Shown here: positions 10,307-36,242 of the stretch, in pieces | Numbering within the stretch: position 1 is the stretch's first letter | How the letters are laid out: each line of letters begins with the position of its first letter | Source: an uncultured Chitinophagales bacterium | GTDB taxonomy: Bacteria; Bacteroidota; Bacteroidia; Chitinophagales; UBA2359 | Direction of reading: 5' to 3' | DNA: 39,423 nt | NCBI GenBank assembly: GCA_937951415.1 | Contig: CALFBW010000055.1 | Coordinates: 1 to 39,423 of the forward strand | The notes under the pieces: generated by a model | The model's database searches: none | What the model saw: only the letters and a program-made list of their open reading frames with translations | What the model was told of the DNA's origin: nothing | Position numbers and translations under genes: made by a program

Positions 10307-10981
10307 ATGAAATTATACAAAATATTAGCCTTTGCTTTTTTTGCAATGGCAGGCATCGCAGCCGCTTTACCTGAGAGCCCTCAGTACGATGATGAACCGA
10401 TTGTGCTCATTAGCACTCCTTACGGACACATGAAAGCCATTCTATACAACGATACCCCAAAACACCGCGACAATTTTCTCAAGCTCGCTAAAGAGGGATT
10501 CTACGACGGAACCACTTTTCACCGAGTAATTAAAGGCTTCATGATACAAGGTGGCGATCCAAATTCGAAGGAAGGCAGCGATGGCAAGCTAGGTCACGGT
10601 GGGCCGAAATACACCATTGAATCAGAAATCCGAGAAAAGCATTTCCACAAAAAAGGAGCTTTATCAGCTGCTCGTAAACCGGACCGTTCCAACCCAGAAA
10701 GAGTTTCATCTTCAAGTCAGTTCTTTATCGCACATGGAAGAACTTACAGAAGTGATGACCTTGATCGATACGAAGAAAAGTACGGAAAAACCTACAGCAC
10801 CATTCAAAGACGCCACTATCGTGTTGTTGGAGGAGCACCCAAGCTCGATGGAGAATACAGTGTATTTGGAGAAGTTATTGAGGGACTGGAGGTGCTAGAC
10901 ATGATAGCAGGTGTACCAACTGGCGAAAAAGACAAACCATTGGAAGATGTACCAATGACAGTTCGAATTCTCAGTAGATAA
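10307..10981 (+). CDS. Exported cyclophilin-type peptidylprolyl isomerase
   Basis: 224 residues with a cleavable signal peptide (hydrophobic 5-20, Ala-Ala-Ala-Leu-Pro). The cyclophilin core is clear: Asp-Thr-Pro-Lys-His-Arg-Asp-Asn-Phe near 46-54, Phe-His-Arg-Val-Ile-Lys-Gly-Phe-Met-Ile-Gln-Gly-Gly-Asp-Pro near 70-84 with the catalytic Arg, Ser-Ser-Gln-Phe-Phe-Ile near 137, and Tyr-Ser-Val-Phe-Gly-Glu-Val near 185. An insertion of about 35 residues between the last two motifs, also present in the next gene, is a feature of the Bacteroidota type. It acts on periplasmic proteins. It has no lipobox, unlike the following paralogue, from which it is separated by 44 bases. Confidence 0.93.
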   Translation: MKLYKILAFAFFAMAGIAAALPESPQYDDEPIVLISTPYGHMKAILYNDTPKHRDNFLKLAKEGFYDGTTFHRVIKGFMIQGGDPNSKEGSDGKLGHGGPKYTIESEIREKHFHKKGALSAARKPDRSNPERVSSSSQFFIAHGRTYRSDDLDRYEEKYGKTYSTIQRRHYRVVGGAPKLDGEYSVFGEVIEGLEVLDMIAGVPTGEKDKPLEDVPMTVRILSR

Positions 10982-11025
10982 GCTGCCATCCATTTTGTAA
11001 CTTCGATTGGAAATTAAATATAGAA

Positions 11026-11682
11026 ATGAAGAAATTATTATTACTTATAATATTAGTAGTCGCTGTTTCCTTTACAGCCTGCGGAGATAAAGAACAAAAA
11101 GTACGCATCTCGACCAGCCAAGGAGACATAGTAGTAAAACTTTACAATGAAACTCCACAGCACAGAGACAATTTCATCAAGCTTGTCAAAGAAGGTTATT
11201 ACGATGAGACACTCTTCCACCGTGTAATCAAAGATTTCATGATTCAAGGAGGTGATCCAGATTCAAAAACCGCAAAACCTGGACAACGTTTAGGCGGCGG
11301 TGGACCTGGCTACACGGTACCTGCTGAGTTTATGCCTCAATTCTTCCATAAAAAAGGAGCTTTAGCTGCTGCCCGAAAAGGAGATCAACAAAATCCTGAA
11401 AAAGCCTCTTCTGGCTGTCAATTCTACTTGGTTCACGGAAAAGTCTATCAAGATACTGAACTCGACAACTTGGAAAAAAGAATGAGCGCGAACATTGCAC
11501 CCGAAAGAAGAGAAGCATACACAAGCATTGGAGGAACTCCTTTCTTGGATGACAACTATACTGTTTTCGGAGAAATCGTTGAAGGTCTAGAAGTCTTAGA
11601 TGCTATCGCAGCCATGGAAACCGACCGATCAGATCGACCAGCTGAAGATATCAAGATGACCGTAAGCATGTTCAAAAAATAA
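11026..11682 (+). CDS. Cyclophilin-type peptidylprolyl isomerase lipoprotein
   Basis: 218 residues. A signal peptide ends in Ser-Phe-Thr-Ala-Cys-Gly with Cys19 as the predicted lipidated residue, so it should be membrane-anchored in the periplasm. The cyclophilin motifs match those of the preceding gene almost segment by segment (Glu-Thr-Pro-Gln-His-Arg-Asp-Asn-Phe, Phe-His-Arg-Val-Ile-Lys-Asp-Phe-Met-Ile-Gln-Gly-Gly-Asp-Pro, Tyr-Thr-Val-Phe-Gly-Glu-Ile), including the same insertion. The pair thus arose by tandem duplication and now differs in anchoring. A strong terminator follows 23 bases after the stop. Confidence 0.94.
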   Translation: MKKLLLLIILVVAVSFTACGDKEQKVRISTSQGDIVVKLYNETPQHRDNFIKLVKEGYYDETLFHRVIKDFMIQGGDPDSKTAKPGQRLGGGGPGYTVPAEFMPQFFHKKGALAAARKGDQQNPEKASSGCQFYLVHGKVYQDTELDNLEKRMSANIAPERREAYTSIGGTPFLDDNYTVFGEIVEGLEVLDAIAAMETDRSDRPAEDIKMTVSMFKK

Positions 11683-18634: not shown

Positions 18635-20746
18635 ATGGCTGTTATCGGCAAACTTAGAGGGATGATCTGGTTATTGGTACCTGTGATCATCATAGCGATT
18701 CTATCGTTCTTACTCATGGATATATTCGGGAGCGGTAATTTTAGCTCTAGCAACAAGCAACCTACCAGTGGTATGGTGAATGGCCAGGAAGTTAATTACA
18801 GAGAATACACCGAGCGCATCAACAATGCGGTAAACCAACAACGTCAAGCGAACCCTTCTATGTCTGATGCCCAGCGCATGCAAGTGGAAGAGAGTGCTTG
18901 GCAACAATACCTGACGGAATTGGTTACGAAAGCGGAATTCGACAAATTGGGCTTAGGCGTCAATAAAGATGAGATGCGTGATTTATTAGTAGGAACTAAT
19001 CCGCACCGTTACGTCTCAAGCTCTGCGCAATTTAAAGATGAGGCTGGGAACTTTGATCCTTCCAAAGTGCAAGCTTTCAACGATCAAGTACTGGAGGCAG
19101 ACGAGGAAACGAATCCTCAGTTTGCAGCTTACAAAGAGAGCTGGGCAAATTTCCAAAAGAGTGTTCGAGAAGATCAACACTTCGTGAAGTACGGAAATTT
19201 GGTGAAGAAGAGTGTGTATATGCCTTCTTGGCAGGCAGAGATGAGCAGTCAAGAAGATGGCAAAGCGGTCAATTTCAATTACGTGAAGATTCCTTACACC
19301 GCTATTGAATACGATGCAGCGAACATCACCGATGCAGACTTGAATGCTTACATAAACAACAATGCTGCTACTTACAAAAAGAAAGCGAACGTTTCCATGG
19401 ATTACATCGTCATTGATGTGAAGCCTTCTGCGGCCGATATTGAGGCTACTCGCCAAGCTTTAGACGATGAGCGCAGTTTATTGCAAACTACTACAAATGA
19501 CTCTATATACATTGTGAACAACTCTGAAAGCACCTATAGTGGAGCTTATCAAACAGCCACTGAGTTGAGCTCAATTATTCAAGGGCAAGTATCTAATTTA
19601 GGAAAAGGTCAAATCTCTTCTGTTTTCCAAGATGGACAGACATTCAAAATGATTAAAGTAACAGATGTAGCATCTGTACCAGATTCAGTGAAATGCTCAC
19701 ACATTCTAGTAGCAGAAGATCCTGCTGATCCAAGTGCTGCCAAAACTAAAATTGACAGTATACTCACAGCCATTCGTGGCGGAGCGGATTGGGATAGTAT
19801 GGCCGCTTTGTTCTCTACCGATAAATCAAACTCAGAAAATGGTGGTGATTTGAAATGGGCTAAGAAGAATGCAATGGTTCCACCGTTCAATGCTAAGTTG
19901 TTCTACGATGGTTCCGTTCCAGGACAATTGAAGACTGTGAAAACGCGCTTCGGTTGGCACATTATCCGTATTGATGATATTGCGACTACTTCGCAAGGAC
20001 GCAAATTGGCCATTCTCAGTAAAACCATTGAGCCCAGTCAAGAAACTTCTCGATTGGCATATCAACAAGCTTCAGACTTCTCTAGCAGCGTAAATGCTAG
20101 CAACTTTACAAGCGAAGCAGAAGCTGCTGGTCATACCGTTCAGCAGGTTTTCACAAAGACCTTAAGTGACAACACTTTGCCAGGCATTGGATCTAACAAT
20201 CAAGCTTTGACTTGGGCATTTCAAAACACAGTGGGTAATGTTTCGCCAGTGATCGATACCGGGGAAAAATTCGTAGTGGCGCATTTGACTGAAAAGAATG
20301 CAGCGGGAGTACCTCCTTTGAATAGTATTCGCGCGCTCGTTACTAGTGCCGTAACAAACATGAAAAAAGCTGAAATGGTTAAAGGCGAAAACTTCGCTAG
20401 CTTACAAGATGCTGCGAGTAAATACAATGTAACCAGCAAAACAGCTTCGAATGTAAAATTTGCCTCTACAGCAGGATTACCTTCCGACTTGAGTGGTGAA
20501 GGAAATGTGCAAGCAGCGGCTTATGCTTTGGGAGCAAATCAGATGAGTAATGCAATTGAAGGTCGTTCAGGTGTTTACTTCGTAGAAGTTACCTCTGTAG
20601 TTGATGCACCAGCAAGTGCTGATTACAGCAGCATTGCAAAGACAAAAATTACTACGCTTCGATCTAATGCTGACGGTCGTGCCGTTTCAGCTTTAAAGAA
20701 CGCTGCAAATATTGAAGACACACGCCACACTATACGTAGTTACTAG
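18635..20746 (+). CDS. PpiD/SurA-like membrane-anchored peptidylprolyl isomerase
   Basis: 703 residues, close to Bacteroidota PpiD-like proteins. A short cytoplasmic leader (Met-Ala-Val-Ile-Gly-Lys-Leu-Arg-Gly) precedes a transmembrane anchor at about 11-28. A SurA_N-like chaperone domain covers roughly 45-230 (Gly-Met-Val-Asn-Gly-Gln-Glu-Val-Asn at its start). A parvulin domain spans about 348-446, with Lys-Cys-Ser-His-Ile-Leu-Val at its start, Gly-Gly-Asp-Leu-Lys-Trp in the middle and Thr-Arg-Phe-Gly-Trp-His-Ile-Ile-Arg-Ile at its end. The rest is a second chaperone-like part. It assists folding of proteins leaving the Sec channel on the periplasmic side. It has its own promoter and a strong terminator. 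Confidence 0.92.
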   Translation: MAVIGKLRGMIWLLVPVIIIAILSFLLMDIFGSGNFSSSNKQPTSGMVNGQEVNYREYTERINNAVNQQRQANPSMSDAQRMQVEESAWQQYLTELVTKAEFDKLGLGVNKDEMRDLLVGTNPHRYVSSSAQFKDEAGNFDPSKVQAFNDQVLEADEETNPQFAAYKESWANFQKSVREDQHFVKYGNLVKKSVYMPSWQAEMSSQEDGKAVNFNYVKIPYTAIEYDAANITDADLNAYINNNAATYKKKANVSMDYIVIDVKPSAADIEATRQALDDERSLLQTTTNDSIYIVNNSESTYSGAYQTATELSSIIQGQVSNLGKGQISSVFQDGQTFKMIKVTDVASVPDSVKCSHILVAEDPADPSAAKTKIDSILTAIRGGADWDSMAALFSTDKSNSENGGDLKWAKKNAMVPPFNAKLFYDGSVPGQLKTVKTRFGWHIIRIDDIATTSQGRKLAILSKTIEPSQETSRLAYQQASDFSSSVNASNFTSEAEAAGHTVQQVFTKTLSDNTLPGIGSNNQALTWAFQNTVGNVSPVIDTGEKFVVAHLTEKNAAGVPPLNSIRALVTSAVTNMKKAEMVKGENFASLQDAASKYNVTSKTASNVKFASTAGLPSDLSGEGNVQAAAYALGANQMSNAIEGRSGVYFVEVTSVVDAPASADYSSIAKTKITTLRSNADGRAVSALKNAANIEDTRHTIRSY

Positions 20747-24653: not shown

Positions 24654-26615
24654 TTAATCTGCACGTTCAAACAATCGGGCCTGTTTTATATAAAGCTTTC
24701 GAGAAGTCTCTTCCAACTTGAACTCAACATCTAAGGCAAAGTCTGAAAAGGATGCACCTTCGTCTTTCGCACCCTCATACAAATCAAAAAAATGCTTTTT
24801 CACTGCTAATAAATACCTCGTTGTAGACAAGATTTCCTCCGTAGTCATAATCGGTCTGCCTTCGTTAAGACTGGAAAGACTAATATATTCAACAATATCC
24901 TTGTCGGTATAAAACTCATAAGGTGAGTCAGAATAACAAATAAATTGATCGCAACTAACACCCGGCTCAGGTTTCACGATACTCTCTTCACCCAATTGTA
25001 CATTAAAGACAAAACCATTCACATTATCACGGTAAAGATTACTTGTGATACAGACACCGTTGGCCGCCTCATCTGGAAACGAGCGATGCACTAAAATACC
25101 CATCGCCACAGATCTTGAATCTATTTGGAAATAAGAGCGTTCCTGGAAAGCTCGATCGCCCCAAGTACTCGCCCAAACCTTCTTAATTGCCTTTTCAATC
25201 GTCTTTACTTCATCACCCAATATCCCGGTTTTCGAAGCATACAGACCTGCCCCGTTAAAGCCCTTCACATCTTCCGCGTTCGTAGAAGAACGAAATCGCA
25301 TTCGATTGCTGGGGCTAGTATTGCAAATCATCTCCTCCACTTCCCGTATCAAATTAGTGTCCACTTGGTGGCTATAGATCAAGGTTCTAATGGAATCTAG
25401 AAGCTCGCTAGCCTCTTGCGGGCTCAAGTCTTTCTCACTTACCTTTTCTACCAAGGGAATAGCTCCACACGCTTTTATATGTTGTAGATAATAGTAAAAA
25501 GGTATAGCAAAAGCCCCTTCAGGGATGGGAGCCTCCAGGAATTCTTCTGTCTCGACTTTTGACAACTCAGCAAAGTGCGCGGCTTTTCCTCCTACTAAGT
25601 CAATGTCTTTAAAACACAAGGATTCCATCTTCCACAAACCTTTACTTTCCGCATCCACCTTCAGTACGGTTTTCGATTTCTTCCTTCCTTTTCTCCAAAA
25701 CTTTTCCGCTTCAGTCTCATCTGCCTTTTCCATAGAAAAAGTGTCCTGCTTAACTTCAAAGCGGACCAATTCCCCTTCAAACTCATTGAAAAATTTACTT
25801 TCCCAAGCCCTTTTCCAAGCCATAATAGGTGTTCCTCTATTCTGACAAAGTACGTTGATGTGGCTCAAAGGCGTTTGAAAATCAGTCGTGATTAAGCCAG
25901 CAATAAGTGGAATATCATTTGGACTTCCATTGAAAAGCAAGAGATCCTTCACTCCCACTTGTTCCATTTTGAAGGTATCTACTGCAATCTTCTTCAAATA
26001 GCCATAAGCTACTTTCTTGTTCAGTGCTTGGTACTGCTGATCGCCATAAATCTCTTCAGCGGTAATGATAGGCACTTCCTTTTCTCCTCTAAAACTCTCC
26101 ACCAATCTTTGATTGTTAAGGAAAAGGTACAATTCCTTCTCTAATAAAAAGCCCTCCTTGACTTTTGAATAAAGCAGTACCACATCATCTCGTGACATTT
26201 CATCAGCGACAGAAATTTCCAAGATAAATTTGTCACTAGAAGCAAAATAATTCAATGTTCCCAACAAGAAGGCTCTGTCCGCTCTGCCTTCTTGGTAATT
26301 CTCTTTGTTAAAATCATGTAGGCTTCCGGAATAGTGTAAGAGGTACTTACAAAAGCTATAGTGATACGGATACCATAGGGAATTCATGAAGAACAAACGT
26401 TCCTTCTCTAATTGATAAATGAATTTCACCGACTTCACCTGTCCGTACTTCGAAGAAAGCGGTATTCCCGCCAGTTTATCAAATACCTCTTTCGATTCTA
26501 GGTCGTAACTGTATTTACCTCGTACATTGGGGTATTTGTTTTGAGCAGTAAGATTCTCAGAATAGGAAAAGAACAATAAAAATATCGTGACAATAAAAAA
26601 GAGCGACCTCGCCAT
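24654..26615 (-). CDS. Exported glucan-water-dikinase-like / PEP-utilising enzyme-like protein
   Basis: 653 residues from the ATG at 26615, which begins a signal peptide (hydrophobic 5-17, cleavage likely at Leu-Thr-Ala-Gln). Residues 26-220 are of unknown fold. A phosphohistidine-type segment Thr-Pro-Leu-Ser-His-Ile-Asn-Val-Leu lies at 248-256 with His252, followed by Arg-Gly-Thr-Pro-Ile. An ATP-grasp domain then runs from Val-Gly-Gly-Lys-Ala-Ala-His (341-347) through Arg-Phe-Arg-Ser-Ser-Thr-Asn-Ala-Glu-Asp (440-449) to Asp-Val-Glu (629-631) and Gln-Ala-Arg (645-647). His domain before ATP-grasp is the order of plant glucan water dikinases, the reverse of PEP synthase. Upstream in-frame ATGs (26660, 26693) would add a Ser-Cys-rich leader. 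A dikinase outside the cytoplasm would lack ATP, so either it stays cytosolic or its role differs. GNAT gene lies upstream by 130 bases. Confidence 0.78.
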   Translation of the reverse strand: MARSLFFIVTIFLLFFSYSENLTAQNKYPNVRGKYSYDLESKEVFDKLAGIPLSSKYGQVKSVKFIYQLEKERLFFMNSLWYPYHYSFCKYLLHYSGSLHDFNKENYQEGRADRAFLLGTLNYFASSDKFILEISVADEMSRDDVVLLYSKVKEGFLLEKELYLFLNNQRLVESFRGEKEVPIITAEEIYGDQQYQALNKKVAYGYLKKIAVDTFKMEQVGVKDLLLFNGSPNDIPLIAGLITTDFQTPLSHINVLCQNRGTPIMAWKRAWESKFFNEFEGELVRFEVKQDTFSMEKADETEAEKFWRKGRKKSKTVLKVDAESKGLWKMESLCFKDIDLVGGKAAHFAELSKVETEEFLEAPIPEGAFAIPFYYYLQHIKACGAIPLVEKVSEKDLSPQEASELLDSIRTLIYSHQVDTNLIREVEEMICNTSPSNRMRFRSSTNAEDVKGFNGAGLYASKTGILGDEVKTIEKAIKKVWASTWGDRAFQERSYFQIDSRSVAMGILVHRSFPDEAANGVCITSNLYRDNVNGFVFNVQLGEESIVKPEPGVSCDQFICYSDSPYEFYTDKDIVEYISLSSLNEGRPIMTTEEILSTTRYLLAVKKHFFDLYEGAKDEGASFSDFALDVEFKLEETSRKLYIKQARLFERAD

Positions 26616-26631
26616 CCCCCACACTTTACAA

Positions 26632-26655
26632 GAGAAAGAGCAAGAGCAAGAGCAA
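26632..26655. repeat. Hexanucleotide tandem repeat GAGMAA x4
   Basis: GAGAAA followed by three GAGCAA units. On the minus strand it reads (TTGCTC)3TTTCTC and lies between the alternative start codons at 26660 and 26615 of the dikinase-like gene, where it would code for alternating Ser and Cys if translated. Confidence 0.7.
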
Positions 26656-26745
26656 GACATTTTGTCGTCATAAAAGAAGACCACTATCCACATAAGGAAT
26701 AATGATAAAGCTTTTTAGGCACTTGCTTTATGGAAGCAAGCAAAC

Positions 26746-27357: not shown

Positions 27358-27805
27358 AATCTTAATCCTTTGCTCATTAAAAAAGCCCCCGGCAATGCTT
27401 TACTTCTTCAATATACAATCGAAACCTACCTTTCTGCAAACGAACATCTCCTCTATTTTATTATAATATGTCCCATAATGAACATTACAAATGCGTATTG
27501 CAACTGACTAAACAGCTGTGCTCTGCGGCCAAAAAATGCAGAACAGCCTAAGATTGAACACTTAAAGAACTGATTATACATTAGCAGATTATGTTATTCT
27601 AGTGAATATCTTTCGCGACAATTTTTCGCAATTTTATTTTTCACTTCTTTGGTCAAAAACCAACTACTGGTCATTAAAACAGCTGAGACTAAGATTTAAC
27701 TTTCTCTCCACAATCGATCCTATCGACCAAGCCATCTTCAAAGGCAAAAGGTGTAAAAACAAAAAAGGAGGCAACCGTTCTTTCAAACAATTACCTCCAC
27801 CTGCA
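27358..27805. other. Gene-free stretch upstream of the GNAT gene
   Basis: 448 bases without a convincing gene. It holds the promoter and leader of the GNAT gene and, at 27761-27798, the terminator of the small gene that ends at 27806. A 74-codon plus-strand frame at 27602-27826 runs through that terminator and has no family features, so it is not called. Confidence 0.5.
27761..27798 (-). terminator. Terminator of the 80-residue protein gene
   Basis: On the minus strand GGAGGTAATTG pairs along all 11 positions with CGGTTGCCTCC (three G-U pairs) around a ten-base loop, followed by six T. It lies eight bases past the stop codon and supports the small gene being real. Confidence 0.85.
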
Positions 27806-28048
27806 TTAATTGCGGCGACTCATTAAGAAATCGTACATTTCATAGTGCCGTCTTTTTTCAGCTTCTATTTTATCCAAATTCATAATTTGTTGCTCCACAT
27901 AACTTGGGAACTCTTTCCGAATTTGAATGCGACTCGCAGGATCAGTAGGCATTTCTGGTACAAGATTATCTACTACCTTCTTTCCTGTAATACCAGCCAG
28001 TTTTTTTCGAAGCTCTTTTCCTAAATATTTGAAATTTAATTTTACCAT
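27806..28048 (-). CDS. Small basic hypothetical protein (80 aa)
   Basis: 80 residues, no family recognised, no signal peptide or membrane segment. The N-terminal 25 residues are rich in Lys and Leu (Met-Val-Lys-Leu-Asn-Phe-Lys-Tyr-Leu-Gly-Lys-Glu-Leu-Arg-Lys-Lys). A Pro-Thr-Asp-Pro-Ala-Ser-Arg-Ile linker lies at 34-41, and residues 42-80 look helical and charged, ending Met-Ser-Arg-Arg-Asn. The frame starts at an ATG and is followed directly by a strong terminator on the same strand, which together suggest a short monocistronic gene. It is the last of three small minus-strand genes in this stretch. Confidence 0.65.
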   Translation of the reverse strand: MVKLNFKYLGKELRKKLAGITGKKVVDNLVPEMPTDPASRIQIRKEFPSYVEQQIMNLDKIEAEKRRHYEMYDFLMSRRN

Positions 28049-28286
28049 TATTGATGGTTTATTGGTTGATCAATTGGTTCTCTAGCGGACAAACCTTCCC
28101 TGTTACCACAAAAACCATTTTTTGCGGATTAAAAAAGCACGTCCTAAATCAATTACTCCAGAAAGTCTAATTGGAAAAACTTTCCTTGCATCCCTCCACC
28201 TGCCAAAGCAGGTTTTCAATAAATCAAAGAATCAAATTCTCCGAAAGCTTGTTGGTATATATTATTGTTAATAAATTCTTGCATAA

Positions 28287-28320
28287 AAAAAGCCCGGTCA
28301 TTCATTGATGGCCGGGCTTC
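28287..28320 (-). terminator. Terminator of the 61-residue protein gene
   Basis: Read on the minus strand, AAGCCCGGCC pairs with GACCGGGCTT around a ten-base loop and is followed by seven T (the A run at 28284-28291). It begins 24 bases after the small gene's stop. Confidence 0.82.
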
Positions 28321-28343
28321 GATAAAGTACAATTGTACTATTT

Positions 28344-28529
28344 TCATTTATCCCTTTCCGGCCAGTCTGTATCTACATCTTGCTCCTCAACACCATCTGT
28401 TGTCAAATCATTTATAGAAAAAATTTCACAATTAATACCCGCATCAATATTCAAAACAACAAAGGCGTACTTAGACTCCACGTTTTGCGGGGCGCCTGGA
28501 TACAGCTTTATGTTTTGAAATTTAATCAT
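28344..28529 (-). CDS. Small acidic hypothetical protein (61 aa)
   Basis: 61 residues, no family recognised. The N-terminus is Met-Ile-Lys-Phe-Gln-Asn-Ile-Lys; the middle (residues 20-45) alternates hydrophobic and polar like beta strands, with one Cys; the last 17 residues are strongly acidic and end Asp-Trp-Pro-Glu-Arg-Asp-Lys. An ATG start and a terminator 24 bases behind the stop support it. No good promoter is visible between it and the terminator upstream at 28595-28622, so it may depend on read-through from the preceding peptide gene. Confidence 0.55.
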   Translation of the reverse strand: MIKFQNIKLYPGAPQNVESKYAFVVLNIDAGINCEIFSINDLTTDGVEEQDVDTDWPERDK

Positions 28530-28594
28530 GGGTTCAATTGTTTCGTTTGTATTTATTTATTGACAGTTAAACTGAATTTCTTTTATTTATTCAT

Positions 28595-28622
28595 AAAAAA
28601 AAGCCCGAACTTTCGTACGGAC
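28595..28622 (-). terminator. Terminator of the 29-residue peptide gene
   Basis: On the minus strand AAGTCCGTAC and GTTCGGGCTT fold around a GAAA tetraloop (one G-U pair and one mismatch) and are followed by eight T. It starts about 31 bases past the short frame's stop. Confidence 0.75.
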
Positions 28623-28653
28623 TTCTAAGTAAAATAAAAACAAATTTCTTTGT

Positions 28654-28743
28654 TTACTCAAAAGTCCAAATAAAATCAAACGAATCCTCCTCAATACAGC
28701 TGTACGCTGTCCATTGGGTGATATTTATTTTGTTCAATTTCAT
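28654..28743 (-). CDS. Putative 29-residue peptide
   Basis: A short frame starting Met-Lys-Leu-Asn-Lys-Ile-Asn-Ile-Thr-Gln-Trp, with one Cys, two Trp and an acidic, aromatic C-terminal half ending Trp-Thr-Phe-Glu. It has no recognised family. It is called because a consensus promoter stands directly before it and a terminator directly after it, leaving no other content for that transcript than this peptide or an untranslated RNA. Its Met-x-Lys-Leu-Asn opening resembles those of the 61- and 80-residue proteins downstream. It could instead be a small RNA with a chance reading frame. Confidence 0.42.
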   Translation of the reverse strand: MKLNKINITQWTAYSCIEEDSFDFIWTFE

Positions 28744-28752
28744 ATTATGACC

Positions 28753-28784
28753 CAAATGTATAATTAGTTTCCCAAGAGTGCAAA
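28753..28784 (-). promoter_or_regulatory. Promoter of the 29-residue peptide gene
   Basis: On the minus strand TTTG (28781-28784) and TACATTTG (28753-28760) are 20 bases apart, a full match to the Bacteroidota promoter. The -7 box ends nine bases before the ATG, so the transcript would be nearly leaderless. Confidence 0.5.
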
Positions 28785-28922
28785 CAAAACTTGTTATTTT
28801 ATAAAATTTCATTTTTGCAATACTCTATTTCAATTAATCAGTTTCATAAAACTCCAAAGTCGACAGTCATAAATCAGGACTGCTGGAACTATTCGTTCTA
28901 CTCAGTCGTTATAGTTGTTCAT

Positions 28923-33883: not shown

Positions 33884-35512
33884 ATGAATTCATACCAAGT
33901 AAGCGGCCAATTAATTGATATTCGTGGCCGCGAAATATATCCTGCCATTGTCTCTATTGCCAATGGAATTATTCAAGAAATAGAACGAACAGAAGCTACA
34001 AAAGTGGACGCTCAATATCTTCTTCCTGGTTTTGTAGATGCACATGTTCACATCGAAAGCTCATTACTAATTCCAAGCGAGTTCGCACGTATGGCGGTTG
34101 TTCATGGAACGGTTGCTACCATATCTGATCCACATGAAATAGGAAATGTATTAGGGGTAAAAGGTGTTGAATTTATGATTCAAAACGGTAATCAAGTTCC
34201 CTTTCACTTTTTCTTCGGGGCTCCATCTTGCGTTCCAGCTACAAGCTTCGAAACTGCAGGGGCAGAAATCACCGTGGAAGACGTAGACTATTTATTGCAA
34301 AAACCTGAGATTCTATATTTGGCGGAAATGATGAATTGGCCAGGCGTCCTTTTCGGTGATGCAGAAGTAAAAGCCAAAATTGCACTCGCTCAGAAATACA
34401 AAAAGCCTGTAGACGGACACGCTCCAGGTTTGAAAGGAGAACAAGCTTTCCGCTACATCCAAGCCGGAATGACCACAGATCACGAATGCTTTACTTCAGA
34501 AGAAGCACTAGACAAATTAAAGCACGGAATGAAAATTCTAATTCGTGAAGGAAGCGCCGCAAAGAATTTCGAAGCTCTCATTGGGTTATTACCGCAGCAC
34601 TACAAAGCTATGATGTTTTGCTCAGATGATAAACATCCTGACAGTTTAGAGATTGGTCATTTAGATCAATTGGTAAAACGGGCCTTGGCCAAAGGTCAAA
34701 ATCTTTACGATGTCCTGAATGTAGCTTGCCTAAATCCAGTTGATCATTACAAGCTGCCAATAGGAACCCTTCAAGTTGGGGATTCTGCAGATTTCATTTG
34801 CATTGATTCTCCCGCCAATTTTCGCGTAAAGGCTACTTACATTCAAGGTGAAAAAGTAGCAAATGAAGGAAAGACACTCATTGAATCTGTTCCCTGCGAA
34901 AGTCCCAATCAGTTTGACTGCAACTTAAAGGAAGCTAAAGATTTTATCATTGAAAGTCCCGCCAAAAAGGTTCCTGTCATTGAAGTTCTGGATGGAGAAC
35001 TGATTACAAATCGACTCGAATATGAGCTAAGCAGTAGTGATGGAGCACTCCAGACCGACGTATCTCTCGATATTCTTAAAATCGCTGTCATCAATCGCTA
35101 TAGCGATCAAAAGGTAGCCACAGCATTCATAAAGAATTTTGGAATAAAAGAAGGAGCAATCGCTTCTTCGGTAGCACACGACTCTCATAACATTATCGTG
35201 CTTGGTACGAGTGATGACTATATGGCCGCAGCCACCAATGCTATTATAGAAGCCAAAGGAGGTCTATGCGCCACTGATGCAAACGGGACGGAACTACTAG
35301 CATTGCCTGTGGCTGGCTTGATGAGTGCTGAGGATGGTTATTCTATTTCTAGCGCCTATACTTCGCTTGATCAGCGGGCGAAAGCTATGGGAAGTACGCT
35401 CCTATCTCCTTTCATGTCGCTCTCTTTTATGGCTCTACTCGTGATTCCAGCCCTCAAATTAAGCGACAAAGGCCTTTTTGATGGCAAGGAGTTTGCGTTT
35501 GTTGAGTGGTAG
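33884..35512 (+). CDS. ade: Adenine deaminase
   Basis: 542 residues, the usual length for the bacterial Ade/AdeC amidohydrolase that turns adenine into hypoxanthine and ammonia in purine salvage. Metal-binding Asp-Ala-His-Val-His-Ile-Glu-Ser-Ser near 52-60, Asp-Gly-His-Ala-Pro-Gly-Leu near 176-182, Asp-His-Glu-Cys-Phe-Thr-Ser near 198-204, Leu-Ile-Arg-Glu-Gly-Ser-Ala near 218-224 and Cys-Ser-Asp-Asp-Lys-His-Pro-Asp near 246-253 are all present, as is the C-terminal domain with Val-Ala-His-Asp-Ser-His-Asn near 428. It follows gldD after 15 bases, probably in one transcript. Nothing suggests a link to gliding. Confidence 0.95.
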   Translation: MNSYQVSGQLIDIRGREIYPAIVSIANGIIQEIERTEATKVDAQYLLPGFVDAHVHIESSLLIPSEFARMAVVHGTVATISDPHEIGNVLGVKGVEFMIQNGNQVPFHFFFGAPSCVPATSFETAGAEITVEDVDYLLQKPEILYLAEMMNWPGVLFGDAEVKAKIALAQKYKKPVDGHAPGLKGEQAFRYIQAGMTTDHECFTSEEALDKLKHGMKILIREGSAAKNFEALIGLLPQHYKAMMFCSDDKHPDSLEIGHLDQLVKRALAKGQNLYDVLNVACLNPVDHYKLPIGTLQVGDSADFICIDSPANFRVKATYIQGEKVANEGKTLIESVPCESPNQFDCNLKEAKDFIIESPAKKVPVIEVLDGELITNRLEYELSSSDGALQTDVSLDILKIAVINRYSDQKVATAFIKNFGIKEGAIASSVAHDSHNIIVLGTSDDYMAAATNAIIEAKGGLCATDANGTELLALPVAGLMSAEDGYSISSAYTSLDQRAKAMGSTLLSPFMSLSFMALLVIPALKLSDKGLFDGKEFAFVEW

Positions 35513-35524
35513 TTTCCGCAAAAA

Positions 35525-35566
35525 AAGGAAAACTGCTACCTTCGTCAAAAAAAAAATCGAACTATC
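35525..35566 (+). promoter_or_regulatory. Possible promoter of the 36-residue microprotein
   Basis: TACCTTCG at about 35537-35544 is one mismatch from the Bacteroidota -7 box TAnnTTTG. A T-rich but not consensus -33 lies about 21 bases upstream. The same bases take part in an imperfect hairpin (GTAG...CTAC) that may terminate the adenine deaminase transcript. Confidence 0.28.
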
Positions 35567-35677
35567 ATGGGAGTCATCAATAAACTACGAGGTAATAAAG
35601 TCCTATTATTGGGCGTCATTCTATGCGCTTTAGTCGCTTATATTTTGATGATGGGCTATTCCGCCTATGCTGGATAA
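35567..35677 (+). CDS. 36-residue membrane microprotein resembling the PpiD anchor
   Basis: A short frame between adenine deaminase and mscL. It begins Met-Gly-Val-Ile-Asn-Lys-Leu-Arg-Gly and continues with one hydrophobic segment (about residues 12-29), ending Tyr-Ser-Ala-Tyr-Ala-Gly. The first nine residues match the start of the PpiD-like protein of this window (Met-Ala-Val-Ile-Gly-Lys-Leu-Arg-Gly) at seven positions, and in both a transmembrane helix follows directly. It ends there, with no chaperone or parvulin part and no remnant of one downstream. A promoter-like TACCTTCG lies about 23 bases upstream. It could be a genuine small membrane protein or a truncated copy; the intact start, frame and stop favour the first. 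Confidence 0.6.
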   Translation: MGVINKLRGNKVLLLGVILCALVAYILMMGYSAYAG

Positions 35678-35787: not shown

Positions 35788-36183
35788 ATGTTTCAAGACT
35801 TTAAAGACTTTATCTCGCAGGGTAATGCTTTAGACATGGCAGTGGGTTTGATACTCGCAACGGCCTTTGGAAAAATCGTTACTACCTTAGTTTCTAAGGT
35901 ATTATTGCCTCCTATTGGAATGGCTATGGGCGGTGTTTCCTTCGATGACTTAAAGTATATTCTTCAAGACGGCGTTGCCGCTGTTGGAGACAAAGCAGCA
36001 ATTGCTGAAGTAGCTATCGGATGGGGTTCATTCGTTCAAGCAATCATCGACTTTATCATCATTGCATTCGTGGTATTCTTATTCGTAAGAGCTTACATGA
36101 AAGCAAATCCACCAGAAGAAGTGGTAGATGGACCAACTGAAGTTGATCTATTGACAGAAATTCGCGATTCTTTGAAGCGCTAA
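35788..36183 (+). CDS. mscL: Large-conductance mechanosensitive channel
   Basis: 131 residues, the usual length. MscL is the homopentameric inner-membrane valve that opens under osmotic downshock. The N-terminal Phe-Lys-Asp-Phe-Ile-Ser-Gln-Gly-Asn-Ala-Leu-Asp-Met-Ala-Val-Gly-Leu-Ile-Leu-Ala near 4-23 is the pore-lining helix. The second transmembrane segment lies at about 82-104 (Phe-Val-Gln-Ala-Ile-Ile-Asp-Phe-Ile-Ile-Ile-Ala-Phe), and the C-terminal helix ends Asp-Leu-Leu-Thr-Glu-Ile-Arg-Asp-Ser-Leu. It is monocistronic, with a strong terminator 24 bases past the stop. Confidence 0.96.
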   Translation: MFQDFKDFISQGNALDMAVGLILATAFGKIVTTLVSKVLLPPIGMAMGGVSFDDLKYILQDGVAAVGDKAAIAEVAIGWGSFVQAIIDFIIIAFVVFLFVRAYMKANPPEEVVDGPTEVDLLTEIRDSLKR

Positions 36184-36207
36184 TTCGAAATTAACAGAAC
36201 AGTACCG

Positions 36208-36242
36208 TCCCCTTCAATTTGAAATTGAAGGGGATTTTTTTT
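36208..36242 (+). terminator. Rho-independent terminator of mscL
   Basis: TCCCCTTCAATTT and AAATTGAAGGGGA are perfect complements around one base (a smaller loop opens in practice) and are followed by eight T. Confidence 0.9.

Follow-up and report, generated by a model that had tools for sequence, protein, structure and literature searches.

The window, that is the whole stretch of 39,423 nucleotides analysed here, carries a micro-ORF of 36 codons which, judged from its sequence, is probably a lineage-restricted, stand-alone anchor of the PpiD type, known as a singleton from one draft genome of a Bacteroidota. The explanation that we prefer, while giving it slightly less than an even chance, is that the product is a small inner-membrane protein consisting solely of a PpiD-type signal anchor.

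Genomic context and predicted product

The micro-ORF starts with the ATG at 35567 and ends with a TAA codon whose last base is 35677, in agreement with the coordinates and the length of 36 residues given in a preliminary description of this DNA. It lies in an intergenic stretch of 275 bases, 54 bases behind the adenine deaminase gene and 110 bases in front of mscL, with all three on the same strand. Table 1 gives an overview of these and related features. Neither neighbour is a PpiD or Sec gene, and none of the relatives fetched keeps the pairing of ade with mscL; the nearest named relative of the adenine deaminase, from a Chitinophagales MAG, is 67% identical.

Table 1 Coordinates of the micro-ORF, its parts, its neighbours and its full-length relative in the window
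Feature	Position	Strand	Basis
PpiD-like peptidyl-prolyl isomerase, full-length relative of the micro-ORF	18635..20746	+	SurA_N_2 (E 5e-28) and rotamase models
Adenine deaminase, upstream neighbour	33884..35512	+	Family search
Hairpin at the end of the adenine deaminase gene, no T run after it	35506..35539	+	-14.4 kcal/mol, z -2.4
A-rich translation-initiation context, A at -3, -6, -12 and -13	35547..35566	+	Positions according to PMC6847099
Micro-ORF, putative stand-alone PpiD-type anchor	35567..35677	+	36 aa; matches PpiD-anchor profiles built without itself
N-terminal segment, residues 1-11 of the micro-ORF	35567..35599	+	K6, R8, K11
Hydrophobic helix, residues 12-29 of the micro-ORF	35600..35653	+	Kyte-Doolittle maximum 2.92 over 18 residues
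mscL, downstream neighbour	35788..36183	+	Family search
Intrinsic-terminator-like site 3' of mscL	36207..36235	+	Terminator and folding search

No terminator was seen on this strand between the micro-ORF and mscL. A promoter for the micro-ORF was not found; the search gave only a -7 element at 35537 with one mismatch, a kind of site that occurs ten times within 1 kb on both strands. According to Baez 2019 (PMC6847099), adenines at -3, -6, -12 and -13 favour initiation in Flavobacterium johnsoniae. All four favourable adenines occur at 13 of 1,304 ATGs and at only 1 of the 22 window genes, and for the latter reason the start context is weak evidence. By a weighted start-context score the micro-ORF falls within the range of the genes, with 14% of all ATGs scoring equally high.

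Because the N-terminal segment contains K6, R8 and K11, an N-in topology is predicted by the positive-inside rule; M1, I4, K6 and R8 of PpiD anchors are kept within the same eleven residues. A single-sequence AlphaFold2 model consisted of one helix (residues 3-35, mean pLDDT 84). Searches of Pfam and NCBIfam with the 36-residue product gave no family, Rfam gave no match anywhere in the window, and the best PHROGs match (E 0.056) was not significant. The C-terminal A-Y-A-G looks by eye like a signal peptidase site.

The frame closes without the periplasmic SurA_N_2 and PPIC-type rotamase domains that make up a full PpiD. As had been proposed, the protein ends after its helix. Around it, tblastn gave no convincing trace of the periplasmic domains of PpiD; the three pieces returned are weak, with E-values between 0.15 and 32, and none lies just downstream. 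A frame running on downstream, as for the signal peptide of a broken gene, was rejected: all three frames past 35650 hit stops before mscL, and no PpiD body was found.

Two further observations concern other parts of the window. Positions 27358-28790 comprise 1.4 kb without an ORF of at least 120 residues, the ORF within them that looks most protein-like having 80 residues (27806-28048, minus strand). The hexanucleotide repeat CAAGAG, present in 4.8 copies at 26629-26657, encodes Cys-Ser repeats close to the beginning of the minus-strand ORF 24654-26693, and given this repeat the true start of that ORF may lie further in.

The micro-ORF resembles the N-terminal anchor of PpiD

The PpiD-like protein of the window is the sole SurA_N_2 protein found in its genome, and each of 20 family genomes, the source genome included, has exactly one. 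Two tandem cyclophilin-like peptidyl-prolyl isomerase genes at 10307-11682 (plus strand), named by eye from the sequence, bring the isomerase genes of the window to three.

The preliminary description had pointed out that the start of the micro-ORF product, Met-Gly-Val-Ile-Asn-Lys-Leu-Arg-Gly, is identical at seven of nine positions to that of the PpiD-like protein encoded 17 kb away. Both the match and the distance hold. The match was understated: beyond the continuation of both proteins into a transmembrane helix, also noted there, the helices are alike at individual positions, and the whole pairing has 14 identities over 29 ungapped residues. As a control for the post-hoc choice of this pair, all 461 ATG frames of the window with 29 codons or more were compared with 31 gene starts (14,269 pairs). 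The micro-ORF and PpiD were the sole pair with 7/9 identities, one other pair reaching 6/9, and also the sole pair above 9/29, the value of the next best.

The window's PpiD starts with MAVIGKLRG, and 18 relatives have KIR at positions 6-8. L7 and G9 are common to the window's PpiD and the micro-ORF and might point to a lineage-specific link between the two. The Asp found directly after the helix in 10 of 10 PpiD rows of the alignment A1 is absent from the micro-ORF. Its loss fits a helix freed of its periplasmic domain, and fits decay equally well.

The micro-ORF matches profiles of PpiD-type N-terminal anchors that were built without itself and without the window's own PpiD. A start-anchored matrix of 18 PpiD starts from other genomes gave it 34.7 bits, within the 25.6-85.1 bits of true PpiDs under leave-one-out, while the best non-PpiD among 14,865 ATG frames reached 6.9 bits. 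With HMMER and 17 PpiD starts it scored 26.4 bits (E 7.6e-6 over 26,484 frames), and the best non-PpiD frame below it 16.0 bits; these frames were drawn from fetched loci, not whole genomes. A stricter test, a whole-genome profile search (12 PpiD starts, 60 genomes), gave 21.8 bits (E 7.3e-4) and placed the micro-ORF second in its source genome, behind PpiD with 48.0 bits. The margin of this last test is modest: an unrelated helix inside a frame of 332 codons from genome G001 scored 21.7 bits. Because of this near-equal score we regard homology of the micro-ORF to PpiD anchors as quite likely, not as certain. Shuffles of the helix core reached the score of the micro-ORF with the start-anchored matrix in 12 of 100,000 trials.

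The start motif was furthermore searched as a degenerate pattern, which occurred 90 times in 60 genomes compared to about 42 times (summed by hand) for the reversed control. The 89 occurrences other than the micro-ORF were read one by one. In twenty of them the motif is followed by a helix whose hydropathy exceeds 2.4, and every one of these reads as the PpiD-type start of a long frame; the remaining 69 stay below 2.4, two of them coming close (2.17 and 1.82). For this reason motif and strong helix together are specific in the 60-genome sample, and the suspicion that the motif might be common to unrelated membrane proteins was not borne out.

Divergence and codon usage

At the DNA level, codons 1-29 of the micro-ORF and of ppiD share 41 of 87 positions, and the upstream sequences share 12 of 60. 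These low values rule out a recent duplication of ppiD and indicate an old split; the preliminary statement that the micro-ORF "copies" the PpiD anchor is therefore misleading, and "old relative" fits better. In a simulation of neutral decay, 18 sampled anchors, one of which is assumed to be the ancestor, were taken through 15 amino-acid changes while start and frame were held constant by design. The observed score was retained in 8 of 7,200 runs and score together with hydrophobicity in none of the 7,200, which makes it unlikely that the micro-ORF arose from one of the known PpiD anchors by neutral decay. As far as its sequence tells, the micro-ORF appears to have diverged like a constrained anchor and unlike a neutrally decaying one, an observation in favour of selection at the protein level, be it on a microprotein or, earlier, on a longer PpiD that still contained the anchor.

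The codon score of the micro-ORF lies above 94% of 158 non-gene frames and at about the 40th percentile of 282 gene pieces. The synonymous part of the score is uninformative, being no better than in non-gene frames.

Occurrence in related genomes

With the micro-ORF as query, the start-anchored matches in the family genomes were PpiD starts, and profile searches detected a short-frame homologue in none of the 19 other family genomes. Profile A1, used for the family-wide and order-wide searches, included the micro-ORF, whose own E-value with A1 is for this reason circular and was not used. In the order-wide A1 search (396 genomes) the micro-ORF was the sole short frame among the matches listed. 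With the micro-ORF alone as query (E<=0.3), no convincing short homologue was found in 395 other genomes of the order or in 394 other genomes of the phylum. The short-frame matches G422 and G250 are unrelated, since they lack a start where the match lies or contain stops. In G104 the match falls within a frame of 107 codons, and the short-frame matches G391 and G628 are weak (E 0.16 and 0.23). No similar short ORF was found in 147 of 149 fetched loci; the remaining two cover the region of the window itself. A plasmid collection gave no match to the micro-ORF, and the nine-residue start as a degenerate pattern gave none in viral contigs.

The preliminary description had named the lack of a homologue keeping frame and start in relatives as a point against its reading, and no convincing one was found among these 19 family, 395 order and 394 phylum genomes. 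A conserved small-protein family, with frame and start shared between species, was accordingly not detected in a sample without a congener, in which a genus-restricted gene would give the same picture.

Discussion

Three other explanations were weighed against a retained stand-alone anchor. The micro-ORF could be what remains of a second PpiD that has been lost: a full-length divergent paralogue or an acquired copy would have been truncated recently, leaving a functionless anchor. The missing homologues in relatives and the lost Asp agree with such a remnant, and the simulation of neutral decay does not speak against it, since constraint would still be visible in a gene truncated only recently. 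On the other side, no convincing trace of the PpiD periplasmic domains surrounds the micro-ORF, and because all 20 family genomes have a single SurA_N_2 protein, no paralogue is known as a source for truncation. We consider a remnant unlikely.

Slightly less probable still is convergence, in which an unrelated small single-helix membrane protein, of a stress type such as YohP or linked to mscL, would have acquired a PpiD-like N-in anchor by accident. Small single-helix proteins are common in bacteria (PMC12719787, PMC7549839), and hydrophobic composition raises profile scores, as the internal helix of G001 illustrates. Nevertheless, the resemblance is anchored at residue 1 and spans both head and helix, the helix core outscores its own shuffles, and the start motif followed by a strong helix was otherwise confined to PpiD. 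YohP-type small membrane proteins of Escherichia coli are similar in having fewer than 50 residues and one transmembrane helix, a comparison made by description only (PMC12719787). A chance, untranslated ORF in the intergenic stretch would account for the small number of codons, the uninformative synonymous codon score and the unsuccessful promoter search; the similarity to PpiD, the start context and the gene-like total codon score speak against it, and we rate it as improbable, the least favoured of the three. That the micro-ORF is translated and retained as a protein appears, from its sequence features, somewhat more probable than the opposite.

The retained stand-alone anchor would descend from the N-terminal anchor of PpiD, or share an ancestor with it, the two having diverged long ago. 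The micro-ORF has M1, I4, K6, R8, L13, I18, A21, L27 and M28 in common with PpiD anchors and lacks the periplasmic domains, and its product is predicted to be oriented N-in, C-out. For E. coli, PMC9643414 and PMC8082313 place the PpiD helix beside the SecY lateral gate and YfgM close to SecG. A free helix would sit in the site of the PpiD helix beside this gate, and by occupying it would lower or tune the occupancy by PpiD in the manner of a microProtein. A compact YfgM-like protein was not found in the family genomes. The TPR_21 matches there are only fragments that belong to other TPR proteins, most of them larger, which makes YfgM improbable as a partner and leaves SecY as the likelier one. 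The preliminary description had also suggested control of PpiD turnover, which would be a further possible role. Competition at the SecY lateral gate would be the most plausible mechanism; that the product indeed acts through competition at the PpiD/SecY site is possible and rather doubtful.

Compared with PpiD, the SurA_N_2/PPIC rotamase membrane chaperone, the micro-ORF product has the same basic head and helix anchor; it differs in its length of 36 instead of 703 residues and lacks both the periplasmic SurA-like and rotamase domains and the Asp behind the helix. MicroProteins are described in PMC5381583 as small single-domain proteins that engage their targets in other complexes, and the micro-ORF product is likewise short and related to one part of a larger protein encoded in the same genome. 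Examples given there are inhibitors of transcription factors from plants and animals; the words bacteria, prokaryot and transmembrane are absent from the main text of PMC5381583. A stand-alone PpiD anchor was not found in the literature searched, which was covered in part. The most far-reaching version, a dedicated regulatory microprotein that is a bare PpiD anchor, competes for the SecY lateral gate and tunes export as a bacterial membrane-helix counterpart of the eukaryotic competitive microProteins, is in our view unlikely.

If the protein is made, the anchor of a translocon chaperone can exist alone as a small protein, and it would offer a simple way to probe the action of the PpiD helix on its own at SecY. 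Anchors of other single-helix envelope proteins might likewise be looked for as stand-alone proteins in a general scan.
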